A stretch of DNA of 64,000 nt. It comes from Butyrivibrio sp. GTDB taxonomy: Bacteria > Bacillota_A > Clostridia > Lachnospirales > Lachnospiraceae. Every line of letters starts with the position of its first letter. The first letter of the stretch is position 1. Made by a program: the position numbers and the translations under genes. The stretch covers positions 1-64,000 of the forward strand of contig JAGOGF010000001.1 of assembly GCA_017996845.1 (NCBI GenBank), written 5' to 3'. Positions 34,708-64,000 of this stretch are shown here, piece after piece. The notes below the pieces were generated by a model, which worked only from the letters and a program-made list of their open reading frames with translations, had not been told where the DNA came from and ran no database searches.

Positions 34708-34803
34708 GTTTTCCTCCATGCCGGAGCATCTTTGGGGAAGGTACGCGTTGAAAAGCTGCATGTGCAGATTTTTTCATCTGTCACCATAAACCAATCCCGC
34801 TTC

Positions 34804-38266: not shown

Positions 38267-40069
38267 ATGGAAACCAGAAAAATACTAAAAAGAGAGCAGG
38301 TTCCGGCAGAATATACCTGGAATCTGAAAGATATGTATCAGAGTCCTGCCGATTGGGACCTGGATGCAGAAAAGGCAACATCACTTTCTGGGGAAATTGC
38401 CGATTTTCAAGGGCATTTGGCTGATAACGCCGCGACGCTTTTATCCTGGTATCAGAAATCAGATAAAATATCTCTTCTGATGGAGCAGCTTATGGGTTAT
38501 GCATCCCTTGCTGCTGATCAGGATCTTGGCAATAATATGAACCAGGCACGAAATGGTAAGATTCTGGGGATTTACGTTGCTCTGCAGAGTGCAGCTGCGT
38601 TTGCAGATACGGAAATCATGGATATTCCGGATGCAAAGTTGGAACAGTTTTACAAAGACGCTCCCGATCTGGAGCTGTATCGTCATGCCATCGATCTGGT
38701 ACGCCACAGGAAAGCACATACCCTTTCTGCCGCAGAAGAACAGCTTCTGGCTGCAACCCGTGAAATGGCAGAAGGCCCTGCCAATATCGGATCCATTTTC
38801 AGAAATGCTGATCTGAAATTCCCCTCTGTCAAAGACAGTCAGGGAATATCGCACGACCTGACACAGGGAACCTTTATTTCTCTTATGGAAAATGAAGACC
38901 GTGTACTTCGCAAAACAGCATTTGAAACTTTCTATACTACATGGAAATCGCATGAATCACTGTCTGCGACCATTCTCGATGCACATACCAAACAGCAGCA
39001 TTTTTATGCAAAAGCCAGAAAATATTCCAGCAATCTGGAAGCAGCTCTGGATGAAACCCAGGTACCAACTGACGTATACCGCAACCTGATTGATACGGTA
39101 CACAAACATATGCCGTCCATGTATCGTTATATGGCACTGCGCAAAAAACTGCTTGGTGTTGATACCCTTCATATGTATGATCTGTACAACTCCATTGTTC
39201 CGGATGCAGATGAAAAGATCACTTTCGAGCAGGCAAAAGAAGCTGTATTCGAAGCAATCCATCCACTTGGTGCAGACTATACCAAAGTCGTAAAAAAAGC
39301 CTATGAAAATCGCTGGCTGGATGTATATGAAAATGAAGGAAAACGAAGTGGAGCATACAGTTCCGGCGGATCACGTCCGCACCCTTATATTCTTTTGAAT
39401 CACCAGGACAATCTGAACAGTCAGTTTACGCTTGTCCATGAAACCGGACACACCATGCACAGCTATCTGTCCATGCAGAACCAGCCGGTTATCTATTCGG
39501 ATTATGTTATCTTCGTAGCCGAAGTTGCAAGTACCTGCAATGAAGTTCTGATGATGAAAAATCTCTTGTCCAAAACTTCTGATCCCAAAAAGAGGGCCTA
39601 CCTTCTGAATTATTTTATGGAACAGTTCCGCACCACGCTTTATCGCCAGACCATGTTCGCAGAATTTGAACTGCAGATCAATGAAATAATTGAAAAAGGA
39701 GATACCCTTACTCCTGACAAGCTGAATCAAATTTACTATGACCTTAACAAACTGTACTATGGAACGGACATGGTCATTGACCAGGAAATTGCCTCTGAAT
39801 GGGCACGCATCCCGCATTTCTTCTACGATTATTATGTATATCAGTATGCAACCGGATTTTCTGCTGCAATTGCTCTGGCCACAAAAATCCTGCATGAAGG
39901 AGAACCTGCCGTACAGAATTATCTTAAATTCCTGAGTTCAGGAAGCAGTACCGATCCGATCAGTCTCTTAAAGATAGCCGGCGTTGACATGAGTTCTCCT
40001 GCTCCGATTGAGGATGCACTCAATCAATTCGATGAGCTGATTACTGAAATGGAAAAGCTGCTGAATTAA
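38267..40069 (+). CDS. pepF: Oligoendopeptidase F
   Basis: A 600-residue zinc metallopeptidase of the M3B family that trims oligopeptides inside the cell. The zinc motif is HETGH at residues 391-395 in LVHETGHTMHS, with the third ligand Glu in the downstream VAEVASTCNE segment. Length matches the family. GGAG lies seven bases before the ATG. Its stop codon overlaps that of the convergent hybrid kinase by two bases. It is the only plus-strand gene between 25 and 55 kb. Confidence 0.94.
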   Translation: METRKILKREQVPAEYTWNLKDMYQSPADWDLDAEKATSLSGEIADFQGHLADNAATLLSWYQKSDKISLLMEQLMGYASLAADQDLGNNMNQARNGKILGIYVALQSAAAFADTEIMDIPDAKLEQFYKDAPDLELYRHAIDLVRHRKAHTLSAAEEQLLAATREMAEGPANIGSIFRNADLKFPSVKDSQGISHDLTQGTFISLMENEDRVLRKTAFETFYTTWKSHESLSATILDAHTKQQHFYAKARKYSSNLEAALDETQVPTDVYRNLIDTVHKHMPSMYRYMALRKKLLGVDTLHMYDLYNSIVPDADEKITFEQAKEAVFEAIHPLGADYTKVVKKAYENRWLDVYENEGKRSGAYSSGGSRPHPYILLNHQDNLNSQFTLVHETGHTMHSYLSMQNQPVIYSDYVIFVAEVASTCNEVLMMKNLLSKTSDPKKRAYLLNYFMEQFRTTLYRQTMFAEFELQINEIIEKGDTLTPDKLNQIYYDLNKLYYGTDMVIDQEIASEWARIPHFFYDYYVYQYATGFSAAIALATKILHEGEPAVQNYLKFLSSGSSTDPISLLKIAGVDMSSPAPIEDALNQFDELITEMEKLLN

Positions 40070-42867
40070 ACTTTTTCACTTGTATGTTTAATCAAAACAT
40101 CGTATAACACTTTTAAATTCAAAGGTTTCGTAATATAATCATTCATCCCTGCCTCTCTGCTGCGTTCCATTGCAGCAGAGAATGCATCGGCTGTCATTGC
40201 AATGATTGGTACAGACTTTGCATCTACTCTATCCATTTCTCTGATCCTGACGGTTGCCTCATATCCATCCATAACAGGCATCTGTATATCCATCAGAATA
40301 CACGCAAATGCAAATGGTTCTGAAGTTGCAAAAATATGCGCTGCTTCTTCTCCATTTTCTGCTCTGACCGTTTCAACTCCCAGACTTTCAAGCATTCTTG
40401 TCTCAATTTCCGCATTAATTTCGTTATCTTCTGCCAGAAGTATTCGTTCGTTTATTTTTTTCGGTAAAAATTTGCTTTCTTCCTCTTTTTTTTCTGTTTT
40501 CTCTTTTTCAGGTATCATAATGTCTGCTGTAAAAGATACTGTGATATGTGTGCCTTTTCCAACCTCACTGTTGACCGATATTGTTCCCCCCATCAATTTC
40601 ACAAGTCTGTTTACAATAGACAGACCAAGTCCGGAACCTGTAACAACCTTATCACGCCCCGGATTTTTATATTCCTGTGAAAAAGGTTCAAACATAATTT
40701 TCTGAAACTCGCTGCTCATTCCAATTCCGGTATCTATAACCTGAAAAGATTCTATACTTCTTCCATCTGCTATCTTTTCACTTGAGGTGATCACTTTGAC
40801 TGACCCTCCCCGCGGTGTATATTTCACTGCGTTGGACAAAATATTCATCGCAATCTGGTTCAGTCTCGTTTCATCAATCATAAAAAGCAGTACAGCAGAA
40901 TCCGAAACAAGCTCCAGCTGCAGTCCTTTTTCCATGCAAAGGGGTTCAAAAATACTTTGTATATTAAATATAAAATCATTCCAGGAATATGGTGCATCAT
41001 GCAGTTCAATCTTGCCGCTGTCAATTCTGGATATATCCAGTACATCATTGATCAGACTCAGCAGCAAAGTATTTGAGGTTTGAATCTTTCTCAGATCATT
41101 TTGCAGTTTATCCTGATCGTTCATATCCGCAAGTGCAAAATCTGTCATATTGGCTATCGCTCCGATCGGGGTGCGGATATCATGGCTGATCCGGGAAATA
41201 AACTCACTTTTGGCACGATTGGCCATTTCTGCCTCTGCTTTTGCGGCTTGCAGTCGAATATTCTGTTGCTTTCGCAGAAAAGATGATATCAAAAAAATAA
41301 TCAAAAGTCCTGAAATGCTCAAAAAAATACTAAGGACAATCGCTGTCTGTATCGGATAATAACGTATCAGATGTTGATATGAAAAATTAGCAGCCATTGT
41401 TTCATTTTTGTTTAGAATTTCCTGCAGATTATTAACAGAGATATGTCTAAGTGATTTTGATAAAATATCAAAAAGAACCGGATTGGAATCTTTGGTCACC
41501 CCAAGTGCGATTGCTTGCGTAATCTGATTGTCTGCCTGATAATTGAAATTTTCATAAGATTGCATACGGCGATAATAAGCGGCCTGATAATCATTTAGGA
41601 AAGTGCAGTCAGCTTTTTGTGCGGCAACAGCCTCCATACAGGCTTCAGCATTGGAAAAACTGATCGTTTTATATTCCGGATATTTTACATGTACCTGCTT
41701 TTCAAGATATCCTCCTGCTATTGTTGCAACAGTCTTGACTTTTTTTCCGGATATCCTGGTTACACGGCTCACATCTCCTTTCACATACGGTTGGGTGACA
41801 AGCAGATTATGATCATTTGCCCAAACATAGTCATAGCTTACTGCCATAACGGTATCATGAGAGCTCTTACTGAAATTGTTATACACCGACTGTGTGGAAT
41901 CTGCCAAAACAAATCGAAAGGTAATTCCCGTATCTCTGCCGATCGCACGAAGTACATCCGGTGTAATTCCTTCCACATTTCCGCCTGAGTCATACTCAAA
42001 TGGAAGCCAGTTCGTTTCATAAAAGACATTTACAATGGGTTTTTGTTTCAGATAGGCAAGTTCCTGCTTCGTATAACTGATCCTCTGTGCCGCAATCGTA
42101 CCAAAATGATAATCATACAGATTCGTATTAAAGCCCTGGTTATAACTAAAAAGTTTTGCCATTGCATTATCGAGTTCTGCTTTTAGTACCGCTTTCTTTT
42201 TACTGGTAATAATATAAATCGGATCCGGGCTGCACTGTGTAAGCAAAACATATTTTTCCTGTGTACCATTAAAATTACTTTGCGCAGCAGCATCAATCTC
42301 TCCGCGATCAAGCGCCGCAAGCAGCTCTCCCACATCCGAATATGCTTTTGCCCGAAACGCAAATCCCTGCGCCCGACCATATTGTCTGAGACTATCAATG
42401 ATTGTGCTGCCGGCTTCATATCCGACTGTCATCCCTTCAAAATCGGCATAATCATCATATTGCAGTGTGGTATCACTTCTGCCGTAAAGATAACAAAGCT
42501 CCGTGCCCATAGATTCTGAAGAATAATCGTAGTATTTCAGTCGCTCATCTGTTTTGGATACACACATCAGCAGATCCAGATCTCCATTCCTGACCATAGC
42601 AAGGCATTCTGCCCACGACTTATCCACATAAACATATTGCCAGTTTGCATACTCCGCCAGCGCCTGCAGATAATCCTTCTGATAGGCGGTCAGTTCACTT
42701 TCTTCTCCCGTATCCGAATCATCATGAAGTCCTACCCGCACAATACGTTTTACCGGCTCTTCCTTGCTGTTATCAGAAGAAGCATATACCGGAAGAACAC
42801 TGACTGACAGCCAAATAAAAACAATTATATAAAGAACACTTTTTCGTATCCGCTGACTGTTCTTCAT
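40066..42867 (-). CDS. Hybrid histidine kinase with two periplasmic binding-protein domains
   Basis: A sensor of about 933 residues. A signal-anchor helix is followed by two tandem family 3 solute-binding domains outside the membrane (about 40-265 and 270-500), a transmembrane helix near 510, HisKA with His in ISRISHDIRTP, an ATPase domain (NAVKYTP, DTGIGM, GSGLGLSIV) and a C-terminal receiver with Asp in [12 protein letters not shown]. The ligand class is amino acids or other small polar solutes by family. The start is the ATG at 42867, with CAGGAG nine bases upstream. A paralog with similar design lies directly upstream. No output regulator gene is adjacent. Confidence 0.9.
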   Translation of the reverse strand: MKNSQRIRKSVLYIIVFIWLSVSVLPVYASSDNSKEEPVKRIVRVGLHDDSDTGEESELTAYQKDYLQALAEYANWQYVYVDKSWAECLAMVRNGDLDLLMCVSKTDERLKYYDYSSESMGTELCYLYGRSDTTLQYDDYADFEGMTVGYEAGSTIIDSLRQYGRAQGFAFRAKAYSDVGELLAALDRGEIDAAAQSNFNGTQEKYVLLTQCSPDPIYIITSKKKAVLKAELDNAMAKLFSYNQGFNTNLYDYHFGTIAAQRISYTKQELAYLKQKPIVNVFYETNWLPFEYDSGGNVEGITPDVLRAIGRDTGITFRFVLADSTQSVYNNFSKSSHDTVMAVSYDYVWANDHNLLVTQPYVKGDVSRVTRISGKKVKTVATIAGGYLEKQVHVKYPEYKTISFSNAEACMEAVAAQKADCTFLNDYQAAYYRRMQSYENFNYQADNQITQAIALGVTKDSNPVLFDILSKSLRHISVNNLQEILNKNETMAANFSYQHLIRYYPIQTAIVLSIFLSISGLLIIFLISSFLRKQQNIRLQAAKAEAEMANRAKSEFISRISHDIRTPIGAIANMTDFALADMNDQDKLQNDLRKIQTSNTLLLSLINDVLDISRIDSGKIELHDAPYSWNDFIFNIQSIFEPLCMEKGLQLELVSDSAVLLFMIDETRLNQIAMNILSNAVKYTPRGGSVKVITSSEKIADGRSIESFQVIDTGIGMSSEFQKIMFEPFSQEYKNPGRDKVVTGSGLGLSIVNRLVKLMGGTISVNSEVGKGTHITVSFTADIMIPEKEKTEKKEEESKFLPKKINERILLAEDNEINAEIETRMLESLGVETVRAENGEEAAHIFATSEPFAFACILMDIQMPVMDGYEATVRIREMDRVDAKSVPIIAMTADAFSAAMERSREAGMNDYITKPLNLKVLYDVLIKHTSEKV

Positions 42868-42924
42868 CTCTATCTTCTCCTGTTTCCCAATCCCCAAATA
42901 CCGTTTTTGATTTACAGCATATGA

Positions 42925-45900
42925 TCAGTCATGCTGTTCTTTCAGAAGCATTTTCAGAATTCCAAATAACTCACTGTTCTCAATTGGCTTGGCGATATGC
43001 CCGTTCATACCCGCCTCAAGTGCGCTCTTTCTGTCTTCTTCAAATGCATTGGCTGTCATTGCTACAATCGGAATATCTGCAATTCGTCCGTCTGCCAGAT
43101 ACCTGATCTGTCTGGTTGCCTCATATCCATCCATCTTTGGCATCTGAATATCCATCAGTATCAGGTCGTACTGCCCCACAGAGGCCTGTTTCATTTTATT
43201 TACTGCCACGTCTCCGTCATTTGCAATATCGACTTTAAAACCTGCTTCTGATAAAATGGTGGAAGCAATTTCCTGATTCAGTTCATTATCTTCAACCAAA
43301 AGAACTTTCTTTCCCTCAAAGTCTGCCTTTTCCTTTTCCGTTTCTTTTTTCGGCACCGTCTGATAAGGCCTCATTAACACTTCCCGCAGTTCCGACATGA
43401 ACATTGGCTTGGAACAAAATGCCGTTACCCCTGCTTCTTTTGCTTCTTCCTCAATATCAGTCCAGTCATAGGCCGTCAAAATAATAATCGTTTTATTCTC
43501 TCCGATGACCCTGCGTATTCTGCGTGCAGTTTCCACTCCATTCATATCCGGCATCATCCAGTCAATAATATAGGTACTGTACTCATCTTCTCTGTCATGT
43601 GCATACTTCGCCCTGACAACAGCTTCCTTACCGGATGTGGTCCAGTCAGCACGCATTCCAATTTCTTCCAGCATTCTGCTGACAGAAAGACAGATATCGG
43701 TATCATCGTCTGCAACCAGTGCGCGCATCCCCTTTAATTTCGAAATCGTCTCATAAGAAGAAGGCTTTTCACTGATTCGGAATTGCACATCTACAACAAA
43801 TTCTGATCCCTTTCCTATCTCACTCGTAACGGAAATTGTTCCTCCCATCATATCCACAATATTTTTGGTAATGGCCATTCCCAGCCCGGTTCCCTGTATC
43901 CCGCTGACCGTAGCACTTTGTTCTCTTGTAAACGCTTCAAAGATATGCTGCTGAAATTCCTTGCTCATTCCAATTCCTGTATCCTTTATCCGAAACTCAA
44001 ATGTTGCATATCCTTCTTTTATACAAGGCTTCTGAATAATCCGCATACTTACCGTTCCGCCCGGTTTGGTGAATTTCATGGCATTACTGAGTATATTCAG
44101 CAGAATCTGATCCAGACGCAGTTTGTCGCAATAAACATCTTCATTTACCACATCTACTGTATCCACAAAAAAATCAAGCTGCTTCGCCGCGATATCTGAT
44201 TGTATGATTGTTCTGATATCATGGAAGAGATCCGGCAGATGCATTTCCTTTTCTTCAATCTTGACTTTTCCGCTCTCAATCCTGCTCATATCCAGAACAT
44301 CATTAATCAGTGAAAGAAGATGTCTGCTGGAAACCGCAATTTTATTCAGATAATCCCGTACCTGTTCCTTATTATCAATATGTGCATCAGCAAGTGATGT
44401 AAAACCGATTATTGCATTCATCGGTGTTCGGATGTCGTGTGACATATTATTCAGAAAGCTGGTTTTCGCATGATTTGCATGTTCAGCCGATGCCAGTGCT
44501 TCTTTCAGAAGTTTCTGTGCCTCCAGTTCCTTCCCCTTAATTTCATTGATATTCTGTACTGCAAAAATAGTTTCCCTAATTTTTGTATCCTTATCTCTAT
44601 CCGAAACAATCATATTGATCCGCTGCCAGACTGCATTATTATCTTTGTATTCCAATGAAAAAATATTCTGCTTACCCAGCTTTTTATCCCACGCGGCTGC
44701 ATCAGAAAGAAACGACATCAGTTCATGGTAATCAGGCGCTACCAGTCTTTCAGATATAACCCGAAGTGCCTGACTCGCTTTTGTACACCCTCCGATAATA
44801 CTTTCAACCTTTTCATTTGTACGGATTGCTTCAAAAGAATCCTTTTCAAGGTCTACGTGATAAACAACATTGTATACATCACTCATGGAATGAATGATAT
44901 CAAGCTGTTCCTGTAATCTGGCTTCCCGTTCTTTCTCCGCCGCTACCAGATCATCTATAATTTGAAATCCCATAATTACTTCATCAATCCGTTCGCTGCT
45001 TCCATGTAACCGGATAAATTTAAGCCTTACCGAATGTTCCTCACCGCCTGCAGCGTCATGATAGCTTTGCACATATTCCTTGTTTTTACACAGCTCCATT
45101 CTGACCTTTTCAAGTTGAACGGCTTTGGTCATCATTTCCTTATCATCCGGATGCACTCTTTCTCCTATATACTTTCTCCAGAAATCCTGATAAAGATATT
45201 CCTGTTTCCCATCCTTATCGCCACTCTCCAGAACATGCCCCGGAAATTTCAGGACCCGCATTGATCCGCTTTCCAGATCCGCAATGTATACATTCCGGTA
45301 ATCATTGCTGAGCGCCTCAACAATCTTGTATTGTTCCTGAAGACGCTTCTGCCTTTTTTTCTCATTCTCAATATCCATAAAAACACCGGTCATTGCAAAT
45401 GGTATGCCATTTTCTTTTCTATCAATCTGTGCCCGGATTCGAAACCACCTATAATCCCCCTGTTTGGTTTTACAACGGTATTCAATGTCAACTATGTTCT
45501 TTCTTCCTTCAAAATCATGCAGCATATCAGCCAAAATATGCATAACCCGTTCGGCATCTTCAGGATGAAGCGTATCCTTCCATGCTTCATAGACATTGGG
45601 AAAGTCCTCTTCATCCCTGTATCCGAGCATTTGCCTGAAACCTTCACTCCATTTTGCAGATATTACCTGACACTGATCATCATATTCCAGTCTCCATGCT
45701 GCTGATTTTAATGCGGTATATATTTTTTCAATTACTGCATTCGCATCACTTGCTTGTTTTATAGCCTCTTCTTTTGCCATTGACATTGCTTCTTTTTGCT
45801 TTTTATTACCAATAAAATAAAATGCAAAAGCAATCCCGATCAGCGTTAAAAAAAGAAATGCCAAAAGGAACACTGCTGCAATATGATCTCTGGCAAAATC

Positions 45901-47244
45901 AAGCATAGTATAGGAATAAAGTCCGCTGATATAATTGTAGGATATCGTCATCGCATCGTTTTTTCCAATTGCATCAATTCCATGATTCAGTAATTGTAAC
46001 AGTTCTATATTCCCACCTGAGACGCCAAAACAAAATGCACTTGTTTTGGTAAGCGGTGCCGTGTTTACAGAAACATATCTGGAATTACTGAGCAGTCCTT
46101 TTGTCCGAAGTCCGTTCAGTATTGTACTGTCTGCCTTCCCTTCCAGAATTGCTTTAAAGCATCCTGCTGTATCATCGCAATACACAAGCTCTGCATCCGG
46201 ATATGTGGTAACCGTATACGCATACTGCATCAGATTATGTTTTCCTACTGCAATTCTGGATACCGTACTGCTGCTGTACTTCCCTGTATAGGCAAGATCA
46301 ATTGGAGCGTTGATCACTTCCCGGCTCTGCATGATACCATTTTGTTCTGAATACCAGAGATCCCCATATATTGGAAATGCTGTATCAATACTTCCCTGAT
46401 CAAGTGCTTTAAGCATTGCATCATATTCTGTAAATTCCTGATACCGGATATTCAGCTGCTTGCCTATGCCAAGTCTGGACAGCATCAATGGCATGATATC
46501 TTTGAGTACCCCTGTGACCATACCATTTTGATCTGTATCACTATAGGGAAGATAGCCCCTTAAATAGCCAATGACCAATGTATCATTTACAGACAGCCAC
46601 TCCTTTTCCTGCCCGGAAAGAGTAGTCTTAACTGTCTTTTCATCGAAATACTGATTCTGAAGATTTTGCAGAAAGACAGGTTCTTCCTGATTAATCCTGT
46701 CAAGTGCATGATTAAGTTCTGTAAGAAGGTCGGTCCTCCCCTTTGCAGCACATAAATAAAAAGGATCCCCGACAACCAGAAACAGATCTGAAAAAATTCT
46801 GTAGTTTTCTGTGGTGGCCGCACCCATTTCGCATTTCGGATAATATATTTGTTCTGCACGTCCATCTGTATAGGCAAGCCCTGCAAGAAGATCTATTTTT
46901 CCTGCAAGAAGCTGTGCATAAAGTGCATCCCTGGTCCCATATATATACTCATATTTCCATCCGGTATAGTAGGCTATTTTCTGGAGATATTCATAAGAAT
47001 ATCCACTCTTTGCCAAATGATCTCCCGCCCCATTCTGAAAATCCGGACACGCATAATACCCGACACGGACTACTTTTGTATTCTGTTCCCCGCTTTGCGC
47101 ATAGGAATTCAGATGCAAGCATCCAAAACCTGCAAGCACCATAATGACTAACACAATCATGAAAATAAATTTATGCTTCTGCTGCCTCCATGATACCCTT
47201 GCCTTTTTCCGAAATGACTTGTAGGTTATCCTTTTTTTATCCAT
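42925..47244 (-). CDS. Large hybrid histidine kinase: binding-protein domains, PAS, two receivers
   Basis: A sensor of about 1439 residues. Order: signal anchor; a shortened family 3 solute-binding domain; a complete second one; transmembrane helix in the segment after residue 460; three PAS-like domains; HisKA with [16 protein letters not shown]; ATPase domain with NAMKFTK, DTGIGM and GTGLGMAIT; receiver 1 ([11 protein letters not shown]) and receiver 2 ([12 protein letters not shown]). The first binding domain lacks much of one lobe compared with the paralog at 40066. I choose the ATG at 47244, 16 bases after the TspO-like stop; earlier in-frame ATGs overlap that gene. Ligand unknown. Confidence 0.87.
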
Positions 47245-47260
47245 AAATTCAACACCCGTT

Positions 47261-48082
47261 TCAGACATTCTGATTTTTGTTTTCTTCATTCTCCTTTTTT
47301 TCTGCACAAGGCAGTACACAAAAACCATTATGGATAAATACAGCTGCTGCCATTATCACAAGAACTGCCATTCCAGCCATTGCAATCATTTGAAGTGCAG
47401 GATATGCACCCTGAAAGCCTTCTGATGATGTCAGAAAACGATTGATACCAAGATATGCCCACGCAATCGAGAGTGGAAAAACCGCATTTCTGATTAACAG
47501 GATCACTCCTGCCACAAGAATCATTGCAGCAAGCAGCATGATAATTCCCCAGTTTTGCGGTGTAATCCCCCATCCTGTCCACTGTAGCTTAACAAGAGCA
47601 GCGGCAATGTTCACTACGGTTGCAATAAACAGCCATCCGGCATATAATCCGAAACACATCGGCAATAACCAATGCTTTCCCTGTCTGATTTCCAACAGTT
47701 TTCCACAAATCAAGGTCAATACAACCACAAAACCTGTTATAAAAATTACGGAGATTTCTATTAGTACAAATGAAAAAGTTATGATCCACAGCATATTGAG
47801 CACACAGGATATCATGAAAAGTCTGGATATCTGTTCCAGGGCATTCTGATAATAGGGATCTTCTTTTTTGATGATCATAACGATCAGAGAAGCCAGCAGT
47901 AAGGAATAGATAACACTCCAGATGCTGAAAGTCGAAGGTGCCGGAGTGATCAATGTCAGAAATCTATCTGAGATATCTTTCTGTGTCATTCCATTGATCC
48001 ATCCCGTTGCACCAAGTGTATTAATGATCAGTGTCATTACAAAAAATAATAAATTGGTCCATGCCTGCTTCGTTCTGTTCAT
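47261..48082 (-). CDS. TspO/MBR-family membrane protein
   Basis: A 273-residue protein with about seven hydrophobic segments, longer than classical TspO (five helices, 160 residues). The family mark [14 protein letters not shown] lies near residue 42, matching the TPAGYAFSIWxxIY region of tryptophan-rich sensory proteins, and further Trp residues occur in [12 protein letters not shown]. Such proteins bind porphyrins or lipophilic ligands; the role of this extended subgroup is not known to me. The start is the ATG at 48082 after AAAGGAGGGG. It is 16 bases upstream of the large hybrid kinase, suggesting a shared transcript and possibly a sensory partnership. Confidence 0.8.
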
Positions 48083-50026: not shown

Positions 50027-52726
50027 TCACTCTTTATCTTTTTGACTCATGATCATTTTGATAAAACTTTCTGCAATCACAGGGTCAAATTTGATTCCGG
50101 CATTTTCTCTGATAACCCGCAGTGCTTCTTCTATGCTTGCCATACTGTAATTTCCCTGATTTCTGATTCGTTCATATGTTTCTGCAACAGTGATGATACG
50201 CGAGATCAAGGGGATTTCTTCTCCGCGCAGTCCTTTTGGATAGCCGGAACCATCCCAGAATTCATGATGACCATATACCCCGTTTGCCAGATCAAGTGTT
50301 TCCTCTGATAAATTCAGCAGTCTGTAACCGGTAGCCGGATGCTGCCGCATATTATAATTTTCATCTTCTGTCAATGCTTCTGCATCTTTGGAAATAATAC
50401 TGCCGTCTAATACAGTCTTTCCAATATCATGCAGATATCCTGCATCTTTGAGTTTTCTGATTTCAGGTGCCGGAAGATTCATTGCCACCCCAAGTTCTCC
50501 GCATAATCTGCTAACTTCTTCCGAATGCCTTTTCTCCTGCGGATAATGCTCATGAAGTGTACTGATGATACTTCTGATTGCCTCCACGCCAAAACGCTTT
50601 GTTGAAATAACCTTTTCCCTGTACATCTCGGTTTCAGCAGCTTCCATGACCTTTTCAATCTGCTGGTAGCTTTCCGTTTTTGCAGCAGTCCCAACCGCCA
50701 TACTACAGGGAATCTCATTGATCCTGTAACCTGCAAATTCTTCCTTAAGCCTTGCTGCAATGCCTTTTGCATCCTCTAATCCTGTCTCCGGAAGCAGTAA
50801 ACAGAACTCATCACCTCCGACACGTGCTGCAATATCCCCTTTGCGGCAGTTATTCACCAGAACTTCCCCTGCTTTTATAATCAGTGCATCTCCATAACTA
50901 TGCCCAAATATATCATTCAGCATTTTCAGCCCATTGAGATCTATATATATGATACTGACAGGCATTTCCTCCTGTTCATCAATATCCTGCAGCCTCTGTT
51001 CAAAGCAGCCTCTGTTTGTAAGTCCCGTCATGGAATCATGGCAGCTCAGAAATTGGATTCGTTCATCTCTTTGCTTACGTTCCGTGATATCTGCAAAAGA
51101 AACCACGAATCCCATGATTTCGCTGTTTCTTAATTGTGGAAGCACTTGATACTCCACATCAAAAAAGGATCCATCAGCCTTTTGAAAAGTATCATTGACA
51201 ATATGCACTTTTCTGTCCACCTGAACAGTCCGCTCCGCTGCTGTTTCCTGTTTCGCTTTGAATGCCCCCTTTTCCCCTGCTGTATGGACAATCTGATAAA
51301 TATTCTTACCTAAAAGCGCTTTATAGTCAGAATATCCCATCAATTGAAGACAACTGTTATTGCAAAATGTGCATTTTCCTTCCAGATCGGTTCCGAATAT
51401 TGCTTCTGCTGTAGAGTTCAGGATCAGAAGCAGTTTTTCATTACTGTCATTGAGTTCTGCTGTTTTTGCAGCAACCGTTTCATTCAAATGTTCTACTGTC
51501 TGCTGTAATGCATCCGCAACTTTATTAAAAGCTTCTGAAATTCTGCCGATCTCATCGTTTCGAACGACAGGCGCCCTTCGATCCAGTTCTCCTTCGGAAA
51601 ACTTTTCTGCAGCATATAATAATCTGTCAATCGGCTTTAATAGTTTCCTGCTTACAAACGAAAAAACCAGAACTGAAACCAGAACAATCAGTCCCAACAA
51701 AAAAATCGTTACATAAAGATTCCGCATCATGATCCCGGAAAGCGGCTTTTCAGGAATAGCAGATAAAATGACCCAGTCAAGCCCAAGTTCCTGATAATCC
51801 TGCGTATGTACCGAAAGCCTCCCATTTGGTCCATCGACAGAAAGTTCTGTCGCACCCGTATCACAATATGTACGATATGCTTTATCAAAAGCCGGATTAT
51901 GCAGTACATTCAATCCCTTCCGAAGCAGTTTCCCATCATTCGAAAGAGCGTAATTCGCAATATCAGATGAATTTGCAATCAAATTTCCACTGCTTTTTTC
52001 TACAATAGCAATTGATCCGCCATAGTTTCTGACAATTGCAGAAAGTGTATCACTGATGTTTGGAAGCAAAAGCCTGGAAGCCAGAACGCCTTTTAAGCTG
52101 CCGTTTTTCCCATAAATCGGATATACCGCTGATATTGCCATTTCATTTAAAAAAGAACATTTATATACCGGCGAAAATACTGCGGTTCTGGCAATAACTG
52201 CTGCCCGATACCAGTCACCCATCTGCGGAGCCGTCCGATTGGTCGTTTCCGTATACTTGCCTGTCGTCATATCCGCATTGACAGAATAATATCTCGTCTC
52301 CCTGTTCGTTTCTTCCAGATTTTTAATCACTTCAATATTTCCATCTTTATTACGAATTGCTCCATAATAATCTCCATCTGCAGTACAGTAACTGAAACTG
52401 TAAATGTCTTCCTGATATGCTGACAGCACATCAATAAAGTAACTGTTTCTCTTCTTTTCGTCTGACAGATCGACCATCCCATCCTGCAGCATTTTATAAT
52501 TGACTTCATTAATCGCAATCGGAGCATGAATGTATGAATCGATTTTTTCATTTGTCTGATAATTTAATGTTCCTGCCAGCTCATTGGTAGCCTGTCTGAC
52601 AGAATCATACCAACTCGTAAAGACCGGATAGCCGATTGCAAACGCCATTATCAGAATCATTATGATAAAGGTCACCGTGAATATTCTGCCAATGGAACGA
52701 GGCTTGCGTGTTTTTTCTGATTTCAT
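50027..52726 (-). CDS. Cache-HAMP-PAS-GGDEF-HD-GYP cyclic di-GMP signalling protein
   Basis: An 899-residue membrane protein. Transmembrane helix at about 16-38, a double Cache extracellular sensor to about 325, a second helix, HAMP near 355-405, a PAS domain, a GGDEF domain and an HD-GYP domain. The cyclase site is RVGGDEF with the inhibitory RKGD before it. The phosphodiesterase motifs are LHDIGK and HHEFWDGSGYP. All catalytic residues look present. It is first of two adjacent genes of the same output type, so this pair probably sets local cyclic di-GMP in answer to an extracellular small molecule. Promoter at 52837-52865. Confidence 0.91.
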   Translation of the reverse strand: MKSEKTRKPRSIGRIFTVTFIIMILIMAFAIGYPVFTSWYDSVRQATNELAGTLNYQTNEKIDSYIHAPIAINEVNYKMLQDGMVDLSDEKKRNSYFIDVLSAYQEDIYSFSYCTADGDYYGAIRNKDGNIEVIKNLEETNRETRYYSVNADMTTGKYTETTNRTAPQMGDWYRAAVIARTAVFSPVYKCSFLNEMAISAVYPIYGKNGSLKGVLASRLLLPNISDTLSAIVRNYGGSIAIVEKSSGNLIANSSDIANYALSNDGKLLRKGLNVLHNPAFDKAYRTYCDTGATELSVDGPNGRLSVHTQDYQELGLDWVILSAIPEKPLSGIMMRNLYVTIFLLGLIVLVSVLVFSFVSRKLLKPIDRLLYAAEKFSEGELDRRAPVVRNDEIGRISEAFNKVADALQQTVEHLNETVAAKTAELNDSNEKLLLILNSTAEAIFGTDLEGKCTFCNNSCLQLMGYSDYKALLGKNIYQIVHTAGEKGAFKAKQETAAERTVQVDRKVHIVNDTFQKADGSFFDVEYQVLPQLRNSEIMGFVVSFADITERKQRDERIQFLSCHDSMTGLTNRGCFEQRLQDIDEQEEMPVSIIYIDLNGLKMLNDIFGHSYGDALIIKAGEVLVNNCRKGDIAARVGGDEFCLLLPETGLEDAKGIAARLKEEFAGYRINEIPCSMAVGTAAKTESYQQIEKVMEAAETEMYREKVISTKRFGVEAIRSIISTLHEHYPQEKRHSEEVSRLCGELGVAMNLPAPEIRKLKDAGYLHDIGKTVLDGSIISKDAEALTEDENYNMRQHPATGYRLLNLSEETLDLANGVYGHHEFWDGSGYPKGLRGEEIPLISRIITVAETYERIRNQGNYSMASIEEALRVIRENAGIKFDPVIAESFIKMIMSQKDKE

Positions 52727-56202: not shown

Positions 56203-57717
56203 ATGCTGGAGAAAGTTGATCTGAAGTACAGGATGTCCAAAGAGGAGTACAAAAGCAAAATCGGTGCACTGAAGGATTCGCTGGCTGCATGCGATGGCCC
56301 TTTAAAAAGTGCAGGACTTCCCGTCATTATCCTGTTCGAAGGTTGGGAAGCGGCGGGAAAAGGCAGTATCATTTCAAAGCTTATCCTGAATTTTGATCCA
56401 CGCTGGTTTACTATGGTCAACACACAGCCGCCAACTGCTCCAGAGCTGCGGGAACCCGTCATGTGGCGCCACTGGCTGACGATTCCATCCGCAGGCCGTA
56501 TGTCCATCATGGACCGTTCCTGGTATCAGGAAGTCAGTAATCTACGGATTGAAAATAAAGTAGATGAACTCACCAATATCCGCCATATGACTGAAATCAT
56601 TAATTTTGAACGCGGCCTTACGGATAATGGTTATCTGATCATCAAATTTTTTATTCATATCAGTCAGAAAGAACAGCAAAAAAGAATGGAAAAGCTGCGG
56701 GCACATAAAAGTACCAGCTGGCGTGTTAACGAAAATGACGAGAAAAGCTGTCGTCAATATGATAAATATTATGACGTTTATAAACAGATGCTGGAATATA
56801 CCAATACACCAAATGCACCCTGGCATGCTGTTTCCGGTATGGATGAGAAAACCTGCTGTTATCAGGTCTTCTCAATTGTAAATGATACCATGCAAACTGC
56901 ACTGAAGCTCAAAGCCGAACGGGATGAGGCTGCAAAACGACAGTCTGCCATTATCATGCCCGGACAGTATAATTTTGTCCCCATGACAAAATTATCCAAT
57001 GTAGATCTGAGTCAGACACTTACAGATGAAGAATATACAAAAGCATTGAAAAAGGAACAAAATAAACTGTCTGACCTGCATAACAAACTATATCTGCGAA
57101 AAATTCCCGTCATTATCGCTTACGAAGGATGGGATGCTGCCGGAAAGGGCGGTAATATCAAACGGGTATCCGAAGCGCTTGATCCGCGCGGCTACGAGGT
57201 TATGCCAATCGCTTCCCCTACTCCGGATGAAAAACTGCGACATTTCCTGTGGCGTTTCTGGAAAAGACTTCCCAAGGACGGTCATGTTGCGATTTTTGAT
57301 CGAACCTGGTATGGGCGTGTGATGGTAGAGCGCATTGAAGGTTTCTGTTCTGCCGGTGACTGGCAGAGAGCTTATGGAGAAATCAATGATTTTGAACGCC
57401 AGTTGTACGACTGGGGTGCCATTATCATTAAATTCTGGATTCATATCAGTAATGATGAACAACTCAGACGTTTCGAAGAGCGTCAGAAGGATCCTTCCAA
57501 GCAATGGAAGATCACAGAGGAAGACTGGCGGAATCGTGAGAAATGGCCGCAATATGAGGAAGCTGTAGACGATATGTTACAGTATACCTCTACCAGTTTT
57601 GCTCCCTGGAACATCATTGAAGGAAACGATAAAAAATATGCACGGATTAAAACTCTGAAGATAATTAACCAGGCAATCGAGGACAGACTTGCCGAAACGA
57701 AAAAGAGACAACGATAA
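56203..57717 (+). CDS. Two-domain polyphosphate kinase 2 family enzyme
   Basis: A 504-residue protein made of two PPK2 domains. Domain 1 has Walker A GWEAAGKGS near residue 48 and Walker B MDRSWY; domain 2 has GWDAAGKGG near 310 and FDRTWYGRVMVERIEGF. PPK2 enzymes move phosphate between polyphosphate and nucleotides; two-domain forms known from other bacteria phosphorylate AMP to ADP. In domain 1 the lid region is less typical (MDRSWYQEVSNLRIE), so domain 2 is the likely catalytic one. GGGAGG lies nine bases before the ATG. The transcript ends at the hairpin at 57725. Confidence 0.93.
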   Translation: MLEKVDLKYRMSKEEYKSKIGALKDSLAACDGPLKSAGLPVIILFEGWEAAGKGSIISKLILNFDPRWFTMVNTQPPTAPELREPVMWRHWLTIPSAGRMSIMDRSWYQEVSNLRIENKVDELTNIRHMTEIINFERGLTDNGYLIIKFFIHISQKEQQKRMEKLRAHKSTSWRVNENDEKSCRQYDKYYDVYKQMLEYTNTPNAPWHAVSGMDEKTCCYQVFSIVNDTMQTALKLKAERDEAAKRQSAIIMPGQYNFVPMTKLSNVDLSQTLTDEEYTKALKKEQNKLSDLHNKLYLRKIPVIIAYEGWDAAGKGGNIKRVSEALDPRGYEVMPIASPTPDEKLRHFLWRFWKRLPKDGHVAIFDRTWYGRVMVERIEGFCSAGDWQRAYGEINDFERQLYDWGAIIIKFWIHISNDEQLRRFEERQKDPSKQWKITEEDWRNREKWPQYEEAVDDMLQYTSTSFAPWNIIEGNDKKYARIKTLKIINQAIEDRLAETKKRQR

Positions 57718-59935: not shown

Positions 59936-60211
59936 TCAGGTACGCAGCACTTTTTTCATTCTGCTGTATTCTTCCTCTGTAATCTCTCCTTTTGCAAAGC
60001 GCTCATTCAAAAGGCTCATTGCTTCACTGTTCTTTGCATTTGCAGCATCTGCTCTGCTTCTTCTGATCAGCATGATTATAAATGCTGCTGCGAAAGCAGT
60101 AATAATAATCATCCCTGCCATCATCAGAAAACCACCGGCTCCGCCACCCATATACCCCAGTCCGCCTTCCATACAGCGATTCAAACCACCAATTCCTCTG
60201 TAATACATCAT
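59936..60211 (-). CDS. Small SHOCT-domain membrane protein
   Basis: A 91-residue protein. A Gly/Met-rich N-terminus (CMEGGLGYMGGGAGG) leads into a single hydrophobic helix (residues 27-49). The C-terminal 30 residues are a SHOCT motif, LLNERFAKGEITEEEYSRMK. SHOCT proteins are small and often oligomerise next to membrane or stress systems; the exact function is unknown. AAGGAGG lies seven bases before the ATG. It heads the two-component operon. Confidence 0.88.
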   Translation of the reverse strand: MMYYRGIGGLNRCMEGGLGYMGGGAGGFLMMAGMIIITAFAAAFIIMLIRRSRADAANAKNSEAMSLLNERFAKGEITEEEYSRMKKVLRT

Positions 60212-60386
60212 AATATTACCTCCTTATCATTTTATCATTTTTTTTCTTACGGTGTATACATCACTTTCTGATTACAATTGTATTATCTACAAAAAATGTG
60301 GCACAAATATGGCAACTTATTTATACGAAAAATCTGCCTGATATTTATTTTAAAAATTTCCTTTATTACAGTTTTTGTATAAAGAA

Positions 60387-60429
60387 AAGACCTGGCAGCA
60401 AAAGCATTATGGCTTCTGTCCCAGGTCTT
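60387..60429 (-). terminator. Intrinsic terminator after the ferritin gene
   Basis: AAGACCTGG at 60387-60395 pairs with CCAGGTCTT at 60421-60429, with further pairing inside. On the minus strand TTCTTTAT follows. It lies about 60 bases past the ferritin stop. Confidence 0.75.
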
Positions 60430-60491
60430 ATCTGTTATTTTAGTTTGGATTAATTATATTAATAAAAGATTCTAAAAATGTTAATTCCCTG

Positions 60492-61004
60492 TCAGATCAC
60501 CAGAGAAGGTGCCGTATAAACACGCGTAGTCAGCTCATTATCCAGCAGATAAAGGCCTTTGGGATCACTTCCGAACAGATCATACCTTTTTACGATACTC
60601 TCGGTATTCTTTTCTTCCTCATTCTGCTCTCTGACGAACCAGTCCAGCAGCTGCATCGTGCGGAAATCTTTCCCTTCATAGGCAACTGCATAAATGTTAT
60701 TGATAGAAGCCGTAACCTTCTGTTCATGCTCAAACGCCGCGACTGCAGGTGTTCTGAAATCAGCAAATGACATATTGGGTGCTTTTATATCCTGCAAAAC
60801 AATTTTCTCATTATTATTCTGCAAATATTTAATAAACAACATGGCATGATCACGTTCTTCCTGTGTCTGGATATTAAACCAATTGCCAAAGCCGTTCAGT
60901 TCCTGATCAACATAATAATTTTGAATATCCAGATAAAAATACGCAGAATACCACTCCATGTTGATTTGATCATTGATCAGTTTCGTTATTTTTTCGTTCA
61001 ACAT
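60492..61004 (-). CDS. Ferritin
   Basis: A 170-residue non-haem ferritin that oxidises Fe2+ and stores it as a mineral in a 24-mer shell. Ferroxidase ligands are visible as Glu17 in NMEWYSAY and the EERDHA motif near residue 50, with further Glu in AFEHEQ and EQNEEEKN. Length and order match FtnA. GGAGG lies nine bases before the ATG. It stands alone between the SHOCT operon and the ABC-F gene, with its own terminator. Confidence 0.95.
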   Translation of the reverse strand: MLNEKITKLINDQINMEWYSAYFYLDIQNYYVDQELNGFGNWFNIQTQEERDHAMLFIKYLQNNNEKIVLQDIKAPNMSFADFRTPAVAAFEHEQKVTASINNIYAVAYEGKDFRTMQLLDWFVREQNEEEKNTESIVKRYDLFGSDPKGLYLLDNELTTRVYTAPSLVI

Positions 61005-61112
61005 AATATCATGCCTCCTCTGAATTATTGTTTTTCGTACTAACAGGATATCTGTATTTTGCCTTCATGAACAGTATATCATTTTAAAACATAACAATAA
61101 AATAATAATTTT

Positions 61113-63008
61113 TCAGTTGCAAATTCGCATCCACATCTCCATTTGTTTCTCTAATAACTCTTCTGTACTTTTTCTTCGCTCTTCCAGCAGCATCCATTCA
61201 TCAAAATGTTCTTCTGTCACGCGCTGCCTTTCCTTTATACCAGCAATTTCTTCTTCCAACTTACCGATCTCTTTTTCAAGGAATATTCTTTTGTTATTTC
61301 CACTTTTTTTCACAATAGCCAGGTTCTCTTCTATTTCTGCAGGTTTCTCGTTTCTGGGCGCCTTTTCTTCGAAAAAAGCTGCCTTTTTCAGTTTTGCCTT
61401 CTCTTCCTGATAGGAATCATAATCCCCCGCGTAAGTAACCGATCTCCGATCTTCTATTTCTACTATCTTCGTTGCAATCCGGTTGATAAAGTATCGGTCA
61501 TGCGATACAAACAATATTGTTCCCTGAAATAGAAGCAGTGCTTCTTCCAGACTCTCTCTTGCAGTAATATCCAGATGATTGGTCGGTTCATCCAGAATCA
61601 GGAAATTCACTTCCTTTTGCATCAGTTTTGCAAGTAATAATCTGCTTTTTTCTCCGCCTGACAGATTTTTCACTTTTTTAAATACCTGCTCATTCCGGAA
61701 TAAATACTTTGCAAGCAGTTCCCGTGCTTTTCCCTCATCTATGGATAAATCTTCACGAAATGTATCCAAAACTGTTTTTTCTTCATTCGAAAATGTGACC
61801 TGTTGCGGCAAATATCCGATTTGAAGGCTGCATCCGATTTTTATGACTCCAGAATCTGCTTTTTCTTTTCCCATGAGTATCTTTAAAAGCGTTGTTTTTC
61901 CACATCCGTTTTTTCCGATGATTCCAACATGCTCCTTGAAATATATATCCATGCAGAAATCTGACAGAAGCTCTTTTTCACCAAAGCACTTATTAACATC
62001 CTGCATATACACTACATCTTTTCCGGATCTTTCATCATCATCAAAATCAACCAACAGGGTTTTTCCGGATGTTTTTGGTTTTTCAACTTTTTCCATGCGA
62101 TCGAGTCTGTTCTGCATGGACTGCGCTCTTTTGAACATACTTTCATTGTCTGCTCTTGCGGCCCAATCACGCATCTGCCTGATTGCTCTTTCCATTTCTT
62201 TTATTTTTTTTTGCTGTTCTTTATACTCCGCAAGCTGTGCTTCTCTTCTTCTTTTCTTTTCTTTGCTGTAATAGGAAAAATTACCATGATACAATTCTGA
62301 TTTCCCATTTTCGATCTCTATGATCTGATTGACCGTTTTATCCAGAAAATAGCGGTCATGCGATACGATCAGTACCGTTCCTCTGTATGCTTTTATATAT
62401 TCTTCCAACCATTGCAGCATTCCCAAATCCAGGTGATTGGTCGGTTCATCCAGAATGAGAATATCCGGATTTTGTAATAACACTTTGGCAAGACCTACCA
62501 GCGTTTTTTCTCCCCCGCTTAAAGATTCAAATTTATGTTTGAGAAAATCCTCTTCTATTTTCAGTCCACTGCAGATTCGCTCAAGTCTTTCCTGCGTCCG
62601 ATAGCCATCCAGACTTTCATACTCCTCACATATCCTGCTGTAGCGAAGAAGTACTTTTTCCAAAGCAGTTTCGTCAAGCTTTCCCATTTCTGATTCCAGA
62701 ATTTCTATCTGTGCTTTTATTGCTACCTGTTTTTCAAATGCCATCCACAATACATCGTTTACCGTCATCATTTCATCATATTTGGGCAGCTGCTCCAGAT
62801 AGCCCACTGCTGCTCCCTTTCGAACTGCGATCGATCCCCCGTCACATTTTTCCTGTCCTGTGATCATTTTCAGCACCGTTGATTTTCCACAGCCGTTCAG
62901 ACCTGCAATGGCAATGCAGTCTCCCTCGCTTGCCTCTATATTTACATTTTCCAGAATCAGATCTGTTCCATAATATTTTTTTAATTCATTGCATGCTATC
63001 TGTATCAT
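61113..63008 (-). CDS. ABC-F family ATPase, probable ribosome-protection protein
   Basis: A 631-residue protein with two ATP-binding domains and no membrane segment. Domain 1 has Walker A GLNGCGKST near residue 34 and the signature LSGGEK; domain 2 has GKNGCGKTT and LSGGEK. Between them is a charged linker of the P-site tRNA-interaction type, and at the end a long coiled coil of about 90 residues. ABC-F proteins act on the ribosome; some give resistance to macrolides, lincosamides or pleuromutilins. I start at the ATG at 63008, which follows GAGAGG. The frame is open a further 51 codons into a regulatory leader with terminators, which strongly suggests antibiotic-induced expression. Confidence 0.9.
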   Translation of the reverse strand: MIQIACNELKKYYGTDLILENVNIEASEGDCIAIAGLNGCGKSTVLKMITGQEKCDGGSIAVRKGAAVGYLEQLPKYDEMMTVNDVLWMAFEKQVAIKAQIEILESEMGKLDETALEKVLLRYSRICEEYESLDGYRTQERLERICSGLKIEEDFLKHKFESLSGGEKTLVGLAKVLLQNPDILILDEPTNHLDLGMLQWLEEYIKAYRGTVLIVSHDRYFLDKTVNQIIEIENGKSELYHGNFSYYSKEKKRRREAQLAEYKEQQKKIKEMERAIRQMRDWAARADNESMFKRAQSMQNRLDRMEKVEKPKTSGKTLLVDFDDDERSGKDVVYMQDVNKCFGEKELLSDFCMDIYFKEHVGIIGKNGCGKTTLLKILMGKEKADSGVIKIGCSLQIGYLPQQVTFSNEEKTVLDTFREDLSIDEGKARELLAKYLFRNEQVFKKVKNLSGGEKSRLLLAKLMQKEVNFLILDEPTNHLDITARESLEEALLLFQGTILFVSHDRYFINRIATKIVEIEDRRSVTYAGDYDSYQEEKAKLKKAAFFEEKAPRNEKPAEIEENLAIVKKSGNNKRIFLEKEIGKLEEEIAGIKERQRVTEEHFDEWMLLEERRKSTEELLEKQMEMWMRICN

Positions 63009-63078
63009 ATTTACCTCTCTCTGTTTGCATATCCGTTTTTCATTTACTGTTATCCTTTGCAGACATGCCCTTAACCGC

Positions 63079-63115
63079 AAAAAGACCTGTGTAAGTTTTC
63101 TTACACAGGTCTTTT
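63079..63115 (-). terminator. Leader terminator 2 before the ABC-F gene
   Basis: AAAAGACCTGTGTAAG at 63080-63095 pairs perfectly with its complement at 63100-63115 around a four-base loop, followed on the minus strand by a U run. It lies inside the leader reading frame, 71 bases before the ABC-F start. Confidence 0.85.
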
Positions 63116-63126
63116 CTGATCCAGAA

Positions 63127-63155
63127 CAAAATCGTGCTGTTTTCGCACGATTTTG
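63127..63155 (-). promoter_or_regulatory. Leader hairpin at the start of the leader reading frame
   Basis: CAAAATCGTGC at 63127-63137 pairs perfectly with GCACGATTTTG at 63145-63155 around a seven-base loop. It covers codons 3-11 of the leader reading frame and has no U tail, so it is a structural element, not a terminator. Confidence 0.6.
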
Positions 63156-63344
63156 TTTCATATTATCCTTAAGAGAATTTTATTTCACTGCAGTGCATGC
63201 GATCCGTTATTACCTGAAACAGATTCTAACTTCCTGTATCCTTGCAGATTATGCAAAATGCAATTTCAAGAAAACATGCAGCCAATCATTCAGTTCAAAT
63301 CTGTCACCTGCATTTTCCAAAGAAAGCTTTTCTCCCATTGGATT

Positions 63345-63373
63345 AAAAAACCTGAGTAAGTTCTTTACTCAGG
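63345..63373 (-). terminator. Leader terminator 1 before the ABC-F gene
   Basis: CCTGAGTAA pairs with TTACTCAGG around a five-base loop, followed on the minus strand by six U. It lies about 33 bases after the stop of the 43-codon ORF. Confidence 0.8.
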
Positions 63374-63405
63374 CACAAGATTTTGATTTATGATATGGGC
63401 AAAGT

Positions 63406-63537
63406 TTACTTACTACTTTTTTGAATATTCAATTTTGGGCAGACTTCCAGCGCAGACTGAATTAAAACATGCGTAATGCCGGATAGAGAGATTGGCAGAC
63501 GGTCTAAAATTGTATTCTCAAAAAAGCACTGATTCAT
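63406..63537 (-). CDS. Short leader ORF (43 codons) upstream of the ABC-F gene
   Basis: ATG at 63537 follows a perfect GGAGG at seven bases and opens a 43-codon frame ending in TAA at 63406. The peptide begins MNQCFFENTILDRLPISL and contains the segment HVLIQSALEVCPKLN. I do not recognise a family. It lies just after a near-consensus promoter and just before terminator 1, the place of an attenuator-controlling leader peptide. It could also be an independent small protein. Confidence 0.6.
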   Translation of the reverse strand: MNQCFFENTILDRLPISLSGITHVLIQSALEVCPKLNIQKSSK

Positions 63538-63568
63538 CTCTTTGCCTCCATTTCTTTTTTATATTTGT

Positions 63569-63597
63569 AATATAGCATGCATTTTTTTTATTTTCAA
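63569..63597 (-). promoter_or_regulatory. Promoter of the ABC-F leader transcript
   Basis: On the minus strand TTGAAA (63597-63592) and TATATT (63574-63569) are separated by 17 bases, each matching five of six consensus positions. The transcript should start near 63562, giving a leader of about 550 bases before the ABC-F start. Confidence 0.7.
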
Positions 63598-63690
63598 TTT
63601 ACTTCCAGGTATAAATTATTTTATCAGAGCACCTTTTTTCTTTTTACAAATCAGTTTGGATCATACAGCCTCAATAAAATACATAATGGT

Positions 63691-64000
63691 CTATTGTATG
63701 ATTACCCGCTGATACATCGAATGATCCGGACGAAACTGTACCAGATCCCACAAATTCCCATACAGATCTTTGAAAACAGCTACTGTTCCGTAATCCGCCT
63801 CCTTCGGCTCCCTTTCGAATTCAATTCCGATTTTCTTCATTTCATGATAATCTCTCCAGAAATCATCCGTCCCCAGAAACAGAAAAACCCTTCCGCCTGC
63901 CTGGTTCCCGATGAAAGGCTCCTGCGCAGATTTCGAAGCTCTTGCAAGCAGTATGGTCGTCCCATTTGATCCAGGCGGAGATACCACTACCCATCTTTTG
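63691..64000 (-). CDS. VOC/glyoxalase-family protein, 5' end outside the window
   Basis: The C-terminal part, at least 103 residues, of a VOC-fold protein related to glyoxalase and bleomycin-resistance proteins. The frame stays open to the right edge, so the real start is outside. Visible segments are KRWVVVSPPGSNGTTILLA at the edge, FLGTDDFWRDYHEMKKIGI in the middle and a typical closing strand AVFKDLYGNLWDLVQF with the metal-ligand position Glu/Asp replaced or displaced. The specific substrate is not assignable. Confidence 0.85.
   Translation of the reverse strand, partial: KRWVVVSPPGSNGTTILLARASKSAQEPFIGNQAGGRVFLFLGTDDFWRDYHEMKKIGIEFEREPKEADYGTVAVFKDLYGNLWDLVQFRPDHSMYQRVIIQ

Follow-up and report, generated by a model that had tools for sequence, protein, structure and literature searches.

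What controls an ABC-F gene that is separated from its promoter by a short open reading frame (ORF) and two terminator-like hairpins in series? The question is raised by a locus in a 64,000-nt stretch of Butyrivibrio sp. DNA (GCA_017996845.1, contig JAGOGF010000001.1, positions 1-64,000 of the forward strand; hereafter the window), in which a leader on the minus strand extends from a promoter at 63597-63569 to the start of an ABC-F gene at 63008. A first-pass annotation had described here a near-consensus promoter, a 43-codon ORF with a perfect GGAGG, two intrinsic terminators (T1 and T2), a second ATG with its own ribosome site at 63161, and the ABC-F start, and all of these elements are present (Table 1), the second ATG being preceded by AAGGA. 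A hairpin between the terminators, also described there, exists and comprises 13 perfect pairs instead of the 11 reported. The proposal of ribosome-dependent attenuation that accompanied this description is well supported by the conservation of leader peptide and terminators before ABC-F genes and genes for transporters of the major facilitator superfamily (MFS). Judged from sequence comparison, an ABC-F gene of resistance type is very probably controlled here by ribosome-mediated transcription attenuation at two terminators in series. The comparison with related ABC-F leaders that the annotation had suggested finds the peptide, the promoter type and the second terminator kept across loci; at this level, it shows a conserved peptide, conserved tandem terminators and linkage to resistance-type genes.

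The leader peptide of the window retrieved three relatives as a single query, and a profile gave 51 matches at E <= 1 from Clostridium, Vallitalea, Irregularibacter and metagenomes (one of the 51, P0037, is left out of the peptide alignment A2). The window and Eisenbergiella tayi share a block of 17 residues, NTILDRLPISLSGITHV, at 17/17 positions although 9 of the 17 codons differ, every change being synonymous; in contrast, the ABC-F proteins of the two loci are only ~51% identical. Among five representatives, the block displays 70 synonymous versus 25 non-synonymous codon differences, and the corresponding figures for all 21 sequences, in which related sequences are counted repeatedly, are 973 and 790. 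The peptide is kept against synonymous codon turnover, which points to conservation at the codon level and predicts that the ORF is translated. Its occurrence is scattered rather than universal. Applied to DNA, the leader profile matched 21 of 206 genomes of the Clostridium puniceum family and, in a class sample of 391 genomes, gave three weak matches. One match was obtained in the E. tayi family (397 genomes, smaller profile), three in the E. tayi genus (13 genomes) and one in a phylum sample (398 genomes), all in already known Eisenbergiella-type genomes. Plasmids yielded no leader match, and 32 stretches of viral contigs sharing words with the leader contained no relative. A single phage match (E 1), situated in a tape-measure chaperone region, was taken as chance.

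The genes that follow the leader were assessed in 24 loci (L023-L025 and L033-L053), which remained from 31 after exclusion of L026-L032 as weak matches or second pieces of the same locus. An ABC-F gene lies downstream in 19 of them, with 43-56% identity in tblastn comparisons with the window protein; in one, L037, it is matched in part only and the gene looks interrupted. The remaining five (L045-L049) carry an MFS transporter gene at this position. Four MFS proteins that were scanned matched general efflux models only, all below cut-off. An MFS gene also follows the ABC-F gene in two of nine extended ABC-F loci (L066, L067), and diverged leaders precede an ABC-F gene in L063 and MFS genes in L064, L065, L088, L090 and L093. 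For 11 of the 51 peptide matches, the length of the longest contig equals, in a comparison by eye, that of one of the 120 listed ABC-F proteins, which suggests linkage.

Promoter and terminators stand out by comparison and not in a pattern scan of the window. A permissive scan of 61000-64000 reported one terminator (1.9 in shuffles) and four promoters (7.8 in shuffles), and T2 was not reported; such single-sequence scans do no better than chance, and the argument has to come from comparing loci. Folding against shuffles gives a 10-bp stem of -13.7 kcal/mol for T1 (z -4.2; 2/200 shuffles equally good) and -24.3 kcal/mol for T2 with its flanking A/U pairs (z -8.7; 0/200). In 27 of 32 loci, the 95 bases ahead of the leader ORF contain a TTG-16/18-TAnnnT promoter, against 6.3 expected from shuffles, and a TG precedes its -10 element in 21 of the 32 (0.5 expected). 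At least two terminator-like hairpins were detected in 24 of 29 loci scanned; to these, L023 was added, with a T2 of short U run assigned by eye. Among the 25 loci already assigned a T2, a strict count of second terminators located after T1 and before the main gene gave 24 loci at <= -10 kcal/mol, compared with 0.60 expected from dinucleotide shuffles, and at -12 kcal/mol in 23, compared with 0.30; this count supersedes an earlier one restricted to even stem lengths (10/25; 0.12 expected). In the other 7 of the 32 loci (L005, L063, L064, L065, L088, L090 and L093), no second terminator follows T1 even at -6 kcal/mol, which puts the overall count at 24 of 32. The tandem form therefore belongs to the leaders with an LDRLP or LDILP block and not to all relatives, and within these divergent loci the predicted tandem terminators are real and conserved. 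No Rfam leader family reached its gathering score in the window or in the leaders of eight related loci, where three matches lie elsewhere; below threshold, seven matches to unrelated families were found over 63056-63283.

How such a leader could respond to ribosomes is suggested by its layout. Transcription would start near 63560. In unstressed cells, the ribosome would reach the leader stop codon and cover S2, a candidate antiterminator strand adjoining it, so that T1 could form and transcription would end, with T2 catching polymerases that leak past T1. Stalling of a ribosome on the leader, probably while LDRLPxSLSGI is being made or is in the exit tunnel, or a failure of initiation would leave S2 free to pair with the 5′ arm of T1; T1 would be blocked and the polymerase would continue. 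The T1 3′ arm freed in this way might then pair with the emerging 5′ arm of T2, in which case only polymerases antiterminated at T1 would pass T2. The gene would probably be switched on only when ribosomes are blocked; we infer an antibiotic as the signal and, likewise, the stall site and the choice of drugs. In its complete form, which we put forward tentatively, the model is that of a relay, or proofreading, attenuator, in which one leader would serve two serial terminators, the T1 3′ arm would be the antiterminator of T2, leaky polymerases would be stopped, and a frame-independent RNA motif ~95 bases into the leader, possibly a pause site, would complete a modular sensor common to ABC-F and MFS genes.

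The evidence for S2 differs between loci. A search for alternative pairings, as the annotation had proposed, found S2 to match the T1 5′ arm better than shuffles do (p <= 0.05) in 10 of the 19 loci tested; in the window, with 8 of 10 positions paired, the shuffle p is 0.085 and thus not significant. Over the last 75 bases before T1, the best duplex with the T1 5′ arm reached p <= 0.05 in 13 of 29 loci, and the window fold truncated just after the T1 5′ arm contains the S2 pairing. S2 ends just before the stop codon in most Clostridium loci and starts right at its end in the window, L045 and L048; another stretch outscored it in L034, L035, L041, L047 and L049. Several results weigh against this part of the model. 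The pairing test covered 19 of the 32 loci, duplex energies in the window give p 0.365 near T1 and 0.725 over the whole leader, no more than 5 of 29 loci are significant in the whole-leader test, and neither the Eisenbergiella loci nor L052/L053 lend the pairing support. An anti-antiterminator formed by the motif and S2 was rejected (0/26 loci at p <= 0.05, median z +0.45). With none found, the simplest logic would have S2 masked, and T1 allowed to form, by a ribosome that has reached the stop codon, and S2 free when the ribosome is held upstream or absent. As an antiterminator, S2 is thus a weaker element of the proposal, supported in many Clostridium loci and not significantly in the window.

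Whether T1 hands over to T2 is where the readings part. In the window, 9 of the 10 positions of the T1 3′ arm (63360-63351) can pair with the T2 5′ arm. Compared with plain arm shuffles, this pairing is stronger at p <= 0.05 in 20 of 25 loci, the window among them; its own-clade total is the best of 720 permutations though the hairpin sequences differ between clades. Resemblance of the two hairpins by duplication or gene conversion would have the same effect, and the same attenuator could then operate without a hand-over, T2 only tightening the off state or being relieved otherwise, an account for which the evidence seems to us evenly balanced. The opposite cross pair, T1 5′ arm with T2 3′ arm, is significant in 16 of 25 loci, as plain similarity would give, and its own-clade total also beats all 720 permutations, as expected of shared hairpin ancestry. 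Similarity does not readily explain why, of the two cross pairs, T1 3′ arm with T2 5′ arm is the stronger one in 21 of 25 loci, or why in the five MFS loci it averages -10.0 kcal/mol and its opposite -5.1; moreover, a T2 that is never relieved would stop induced transcripts too. When the T1 5′ arm is blocked and the transcript ends after the T2 5′ arm, the minimum-energy fold contains at least five hand-over pairs in 23 of 25 loci; in a re-run with a slightly different end, this holds for 22 of 25 own arms versus 37 of 150 shuffled ones, and at least nine pairs form with 13 of 25 own, 9 of 150 shuffled and 51 of 146 other-clade arms. Further results speak against the hand-over. Other-clade arms formed at least five pairs in 76 of 146 trials, the MFS clade T1 3′ arm pairs better with three other clades than with its own, and the own partner arm comes out on top in only 3 of 25 loci, falling to ranks 17 to 25 in five. 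The unforced window fold contains no hand-over pair; the T1 3′ arm is occupied instead by a rival partner at the leader stop, AGTAAGT (63414-63408), and forcing the hand-over costs 0.4 kcal/mol. This AGTAAGT pairing, the first antiterminator idea, is a feature of the window that reappears in its fold. Without the block of the T1 5′ arm, T1 is the fold in 17 of 25 loci, and once the T2 3′ arm is complete, T2 is favoured at equilibrium in 19 of 25, so that any effect of the hand-over would have to be kinetic. Among ways of passing T2, we favour the T1 3′ arm acting as its antiterminator, and consider this less likely than not.

Two further explanations dispense with the single decision or with attenuation altogether. 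The annotation had envisaged two checkpoints with two translated frames, the ATG at 63161 starting a second leader or an N-extended ABC-F protein whose translation would open T2. The SD-like (Shine-Dalgarno) AAGGA fits this idea, as does a frame that stays open for 51 codons, into the ABC-F gene (chance 0.013 by composition shuffles). In the 83% identical ABC-F protein P0054, known here from the protein alone, the T2-encoded peptide RKDLCKETYTGLF is in frame with ABC-F, a different frame being open across T2, and its window counterpart RKDLCKKTYTGLF is out of frame; the second frame is thus not conserved while T2 appears kept. Read by eye, the Clostridium loci show no conserved further ORF in the stretch from T1 to T2. 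Of the two-checkpoint leader, the tandem terminators stand, kept as they are across divergent loci, and the two translated frames, improbable on this evidence, do not. The hairpin between the terminators (z -6.4), which has a U-rich 3′ flank, may represent a third, weak terminator or else a short palindrome that was inserted. The terminators might, finally, mark where transcripts from upstream end constitutively, the short ORF being incidental. Scans at chance level in the window and a glyoxalase-like gene that stops ~90 bases before the leader promoter are what one would expect in that case; a peptide conserved against synonymous turnover, an ABC-F or MFS gene after the leader in 24 of 24 loci and a promoter type kept in 27 of 32 are not, and we consider this explanation very improbable.

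The motif assigned to the relay model, GGAAGTCTGCCCAAAATT, lies at +83 to +97 from the leader start. It is read in frame 0 in 21 of the 27 loci with a core match, in frame 1 in five and in frame 2 in one, which rules it out as a peptide-only feature; the pattern is unmatched in 5 of the 32 loci, and the frame in L005 depends on the chosen start. Genomes of the C. puniceum family contain the full pattern in 19 of 204 cases and a reversed control pattern in two. In 8 of 14 representatives, a small GG...CC hairpin forms at the motif in at least one of three truncated folds. The motif resembles the consensus of bacterial polymerase pause sites; hypothetically, it may be a pause site that synchronises ribosome and polymerase by letting the ribosome catch up. 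Six identical copies in genome G600 are, by our own reading, chance occurrences inside a transposase-like repeat, matches in L074 and L091 look like chance, and none of 45 matches in viral contigs has the continuation [AGT][AG]A[AT]. In the leader of L025 (E. porci), the LDRLP block and the motif block are in different frames owing to a one-base difference, the motif bases being retained. A second leader class (L088, L090, L093 and L065; e.g., MSVVIRLSMLEYMANAHAITGNFGTHGESASKIKYN in L088) combines this nucleotide motif, read in another frame, with a single terminator and an MFS gene, and genome G510 harbors both classes (L039 and L093). A similar motif, GGGAGGAGTGCGTCC, occurs upstream of a C. 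puniceum MFS-ABC-F gene pair (L003, ~2330-2350), where the profile recognised no leader. Enterococcus larvae has an ABC-F gene with an upstream ORF, the motif bases GTGTGTCCAAAA and one terminator (L005, 3737-4003), suggesting a wider spread.

Table 1. Features of the leader and its ABC-F gene, with coordinates in the window
Feature	Position	Strand	Support
Extended -10 promoter, TTGAAA-17-TATATT, TGC before -10	63569..63597	-	Sequence scan; same type in 27/32 loci
Leader ORF, 43 codons, SD GGAGG at 63549-63545	63406..63537	-	51 peptide matches at E <= 1; alignments A1 and A2
Peptide-conserved block NTILDRLPISLSGITHV	63466..63516	-	17/17 residues as in E. tayi; 9/17 codons changed, all synonymous
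Nucleotide-level motif GGAAGTCTGCCCAAAATT, read as EVCPKL in the window	63431..63448	-	Core match in 27/32 loci, three frames
S2 ACTTTGCCC, candidate antiterminator strand immediately past the leader stop codon	63397..63405	-	8/10 pairs with T1 5′ arm
Intrinsic terminator T1	63345..63374	-	Terminator scan; folding against shuffles
13-bp perfect hairpin between T1 and T2	63125..63157	-	Folding against shuffles
Intrinsic terminator T2 with flanking A/U pairs; 5′ arm 63109-63100	63079..63115	-	Folding against shuffles
ABC-F protein, 631 aa, ribosomal-protection type	61113..63008	-	NF000355; Pfam PF00005 and PF12848

The product of the controlled gene scores 499.9 bits against the NCBIfam model NF000355, 'ribosomal protection-like ABC-F' (cut-off 380), and its closest PDB sequence matches are ABC-F proteins, including EttA and ExpZ; by these matches, it is a probable ribosome-protection gene. 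A database search returned 1639 proteins at E <= 1e-150. Among the 120 matches listed, P0052 and P0053 are near-identical copies, relatives of 79-91% include P0054 and P0055, and the remainder are ~46-60% identical. When species-representative genomes were scanned with short exact words, 22 related ABC-F loci came up, none more than 53% identical. Four stretches of viral contigs with ABC-F words contained no relative, plasmid matches were all below 60% among those listed (best listed 40.5%), and the top phage match reached only 45%. The bin 60001-64000 has the lowest G+C of the 16 four-kb bins of the window (0.382 versus 0.396-0.452), weak evidence that would fit an acquired ABC-F locus. Other genes of the window, within 32104-34761, 40066-47328, 50027-52726 and 56203-57717, encode a magnesium P-type ATPase, two large hybrid histidine-kinase-like proteins, a GGDEF-domain protein and a polyphosphate:AMP phosphotransferase.

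Titles and abstract openings of the searched literature describe neither this leader family nor a T1-to-T2 hand-over, an earlier mention in Dar et al. 2016 being possible; the terms 'LDRLP' and 'leader peptide' together gave no paper among the top-ranked matches, a query that papers with LDRLP alone could escape. No earlier description of the predicted peptide family was thus found. A long conserved leader peptide for ABC-F and MFS genes offers a directly testable candidate stall motif, LDRLPxSLSGI, and the model is concrete: a costly resistance gene would be silenced by two serial terminators that need one decision. A finder for upstream ORFs has been described (PMC10219788).

Among known systems, as far as the passages cited describe them, the attenuators of vmlR, cplR, msrD and related antibiotic resistance ABC-F genes (PMC9226507, PMC10201436, PMC10314930, PMC12421871) share with the window an upstream ORF, translated in those systems and predicted to be so in the window, an intrinsic terminator and the ABC-F gene. 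Their upstream ORFs are tiny (MIN, MR[I/M], MYLIFM), whereas leaders of the window type have 41-53 codons and a conserved LDRLP or LDILP block. In vmlR and cplR, a second layer sequesters the SD sequence of the gene and acts on translation; the window has a second terminator instead. A long leader is also a feature of bmrB of Bacillus subtilis, a 162-bp leader gene of bmrCD that is induced by lincomycin, erythromycin and chloramphenicol, has a terminator and an antiterminator, and in which inefficient translation favours antitermination (PMC4191407). There, however, the terminator lies inside the ORF, an anti-antiterminator has been proposed and an ABC exporter is controlled (PMC4191407), whereas T1 of the window starts 31 bases past the leader stop codon. 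Tandem terminators with a potential antiterminator are found in the rimP-leader of several Gammaproteobacteria (PMC2965389), which differs in gene and phylum and for which the source passage mentions no leader peptide. The mefA/msrD operon (PMC10314930), like the attenuator proposed for the window, has two attenuation steps before an ABC-F gene; each attenuator has a leader peptide of its own there, the one serving mefA and the other msrD, whereas in the window one leader precedes both terminators. Set beside these systems, the locus is by its sequence very probably a conserved attenuator of a known kind, with a peptide family that was not found described and a conserved tandem-terminator design.

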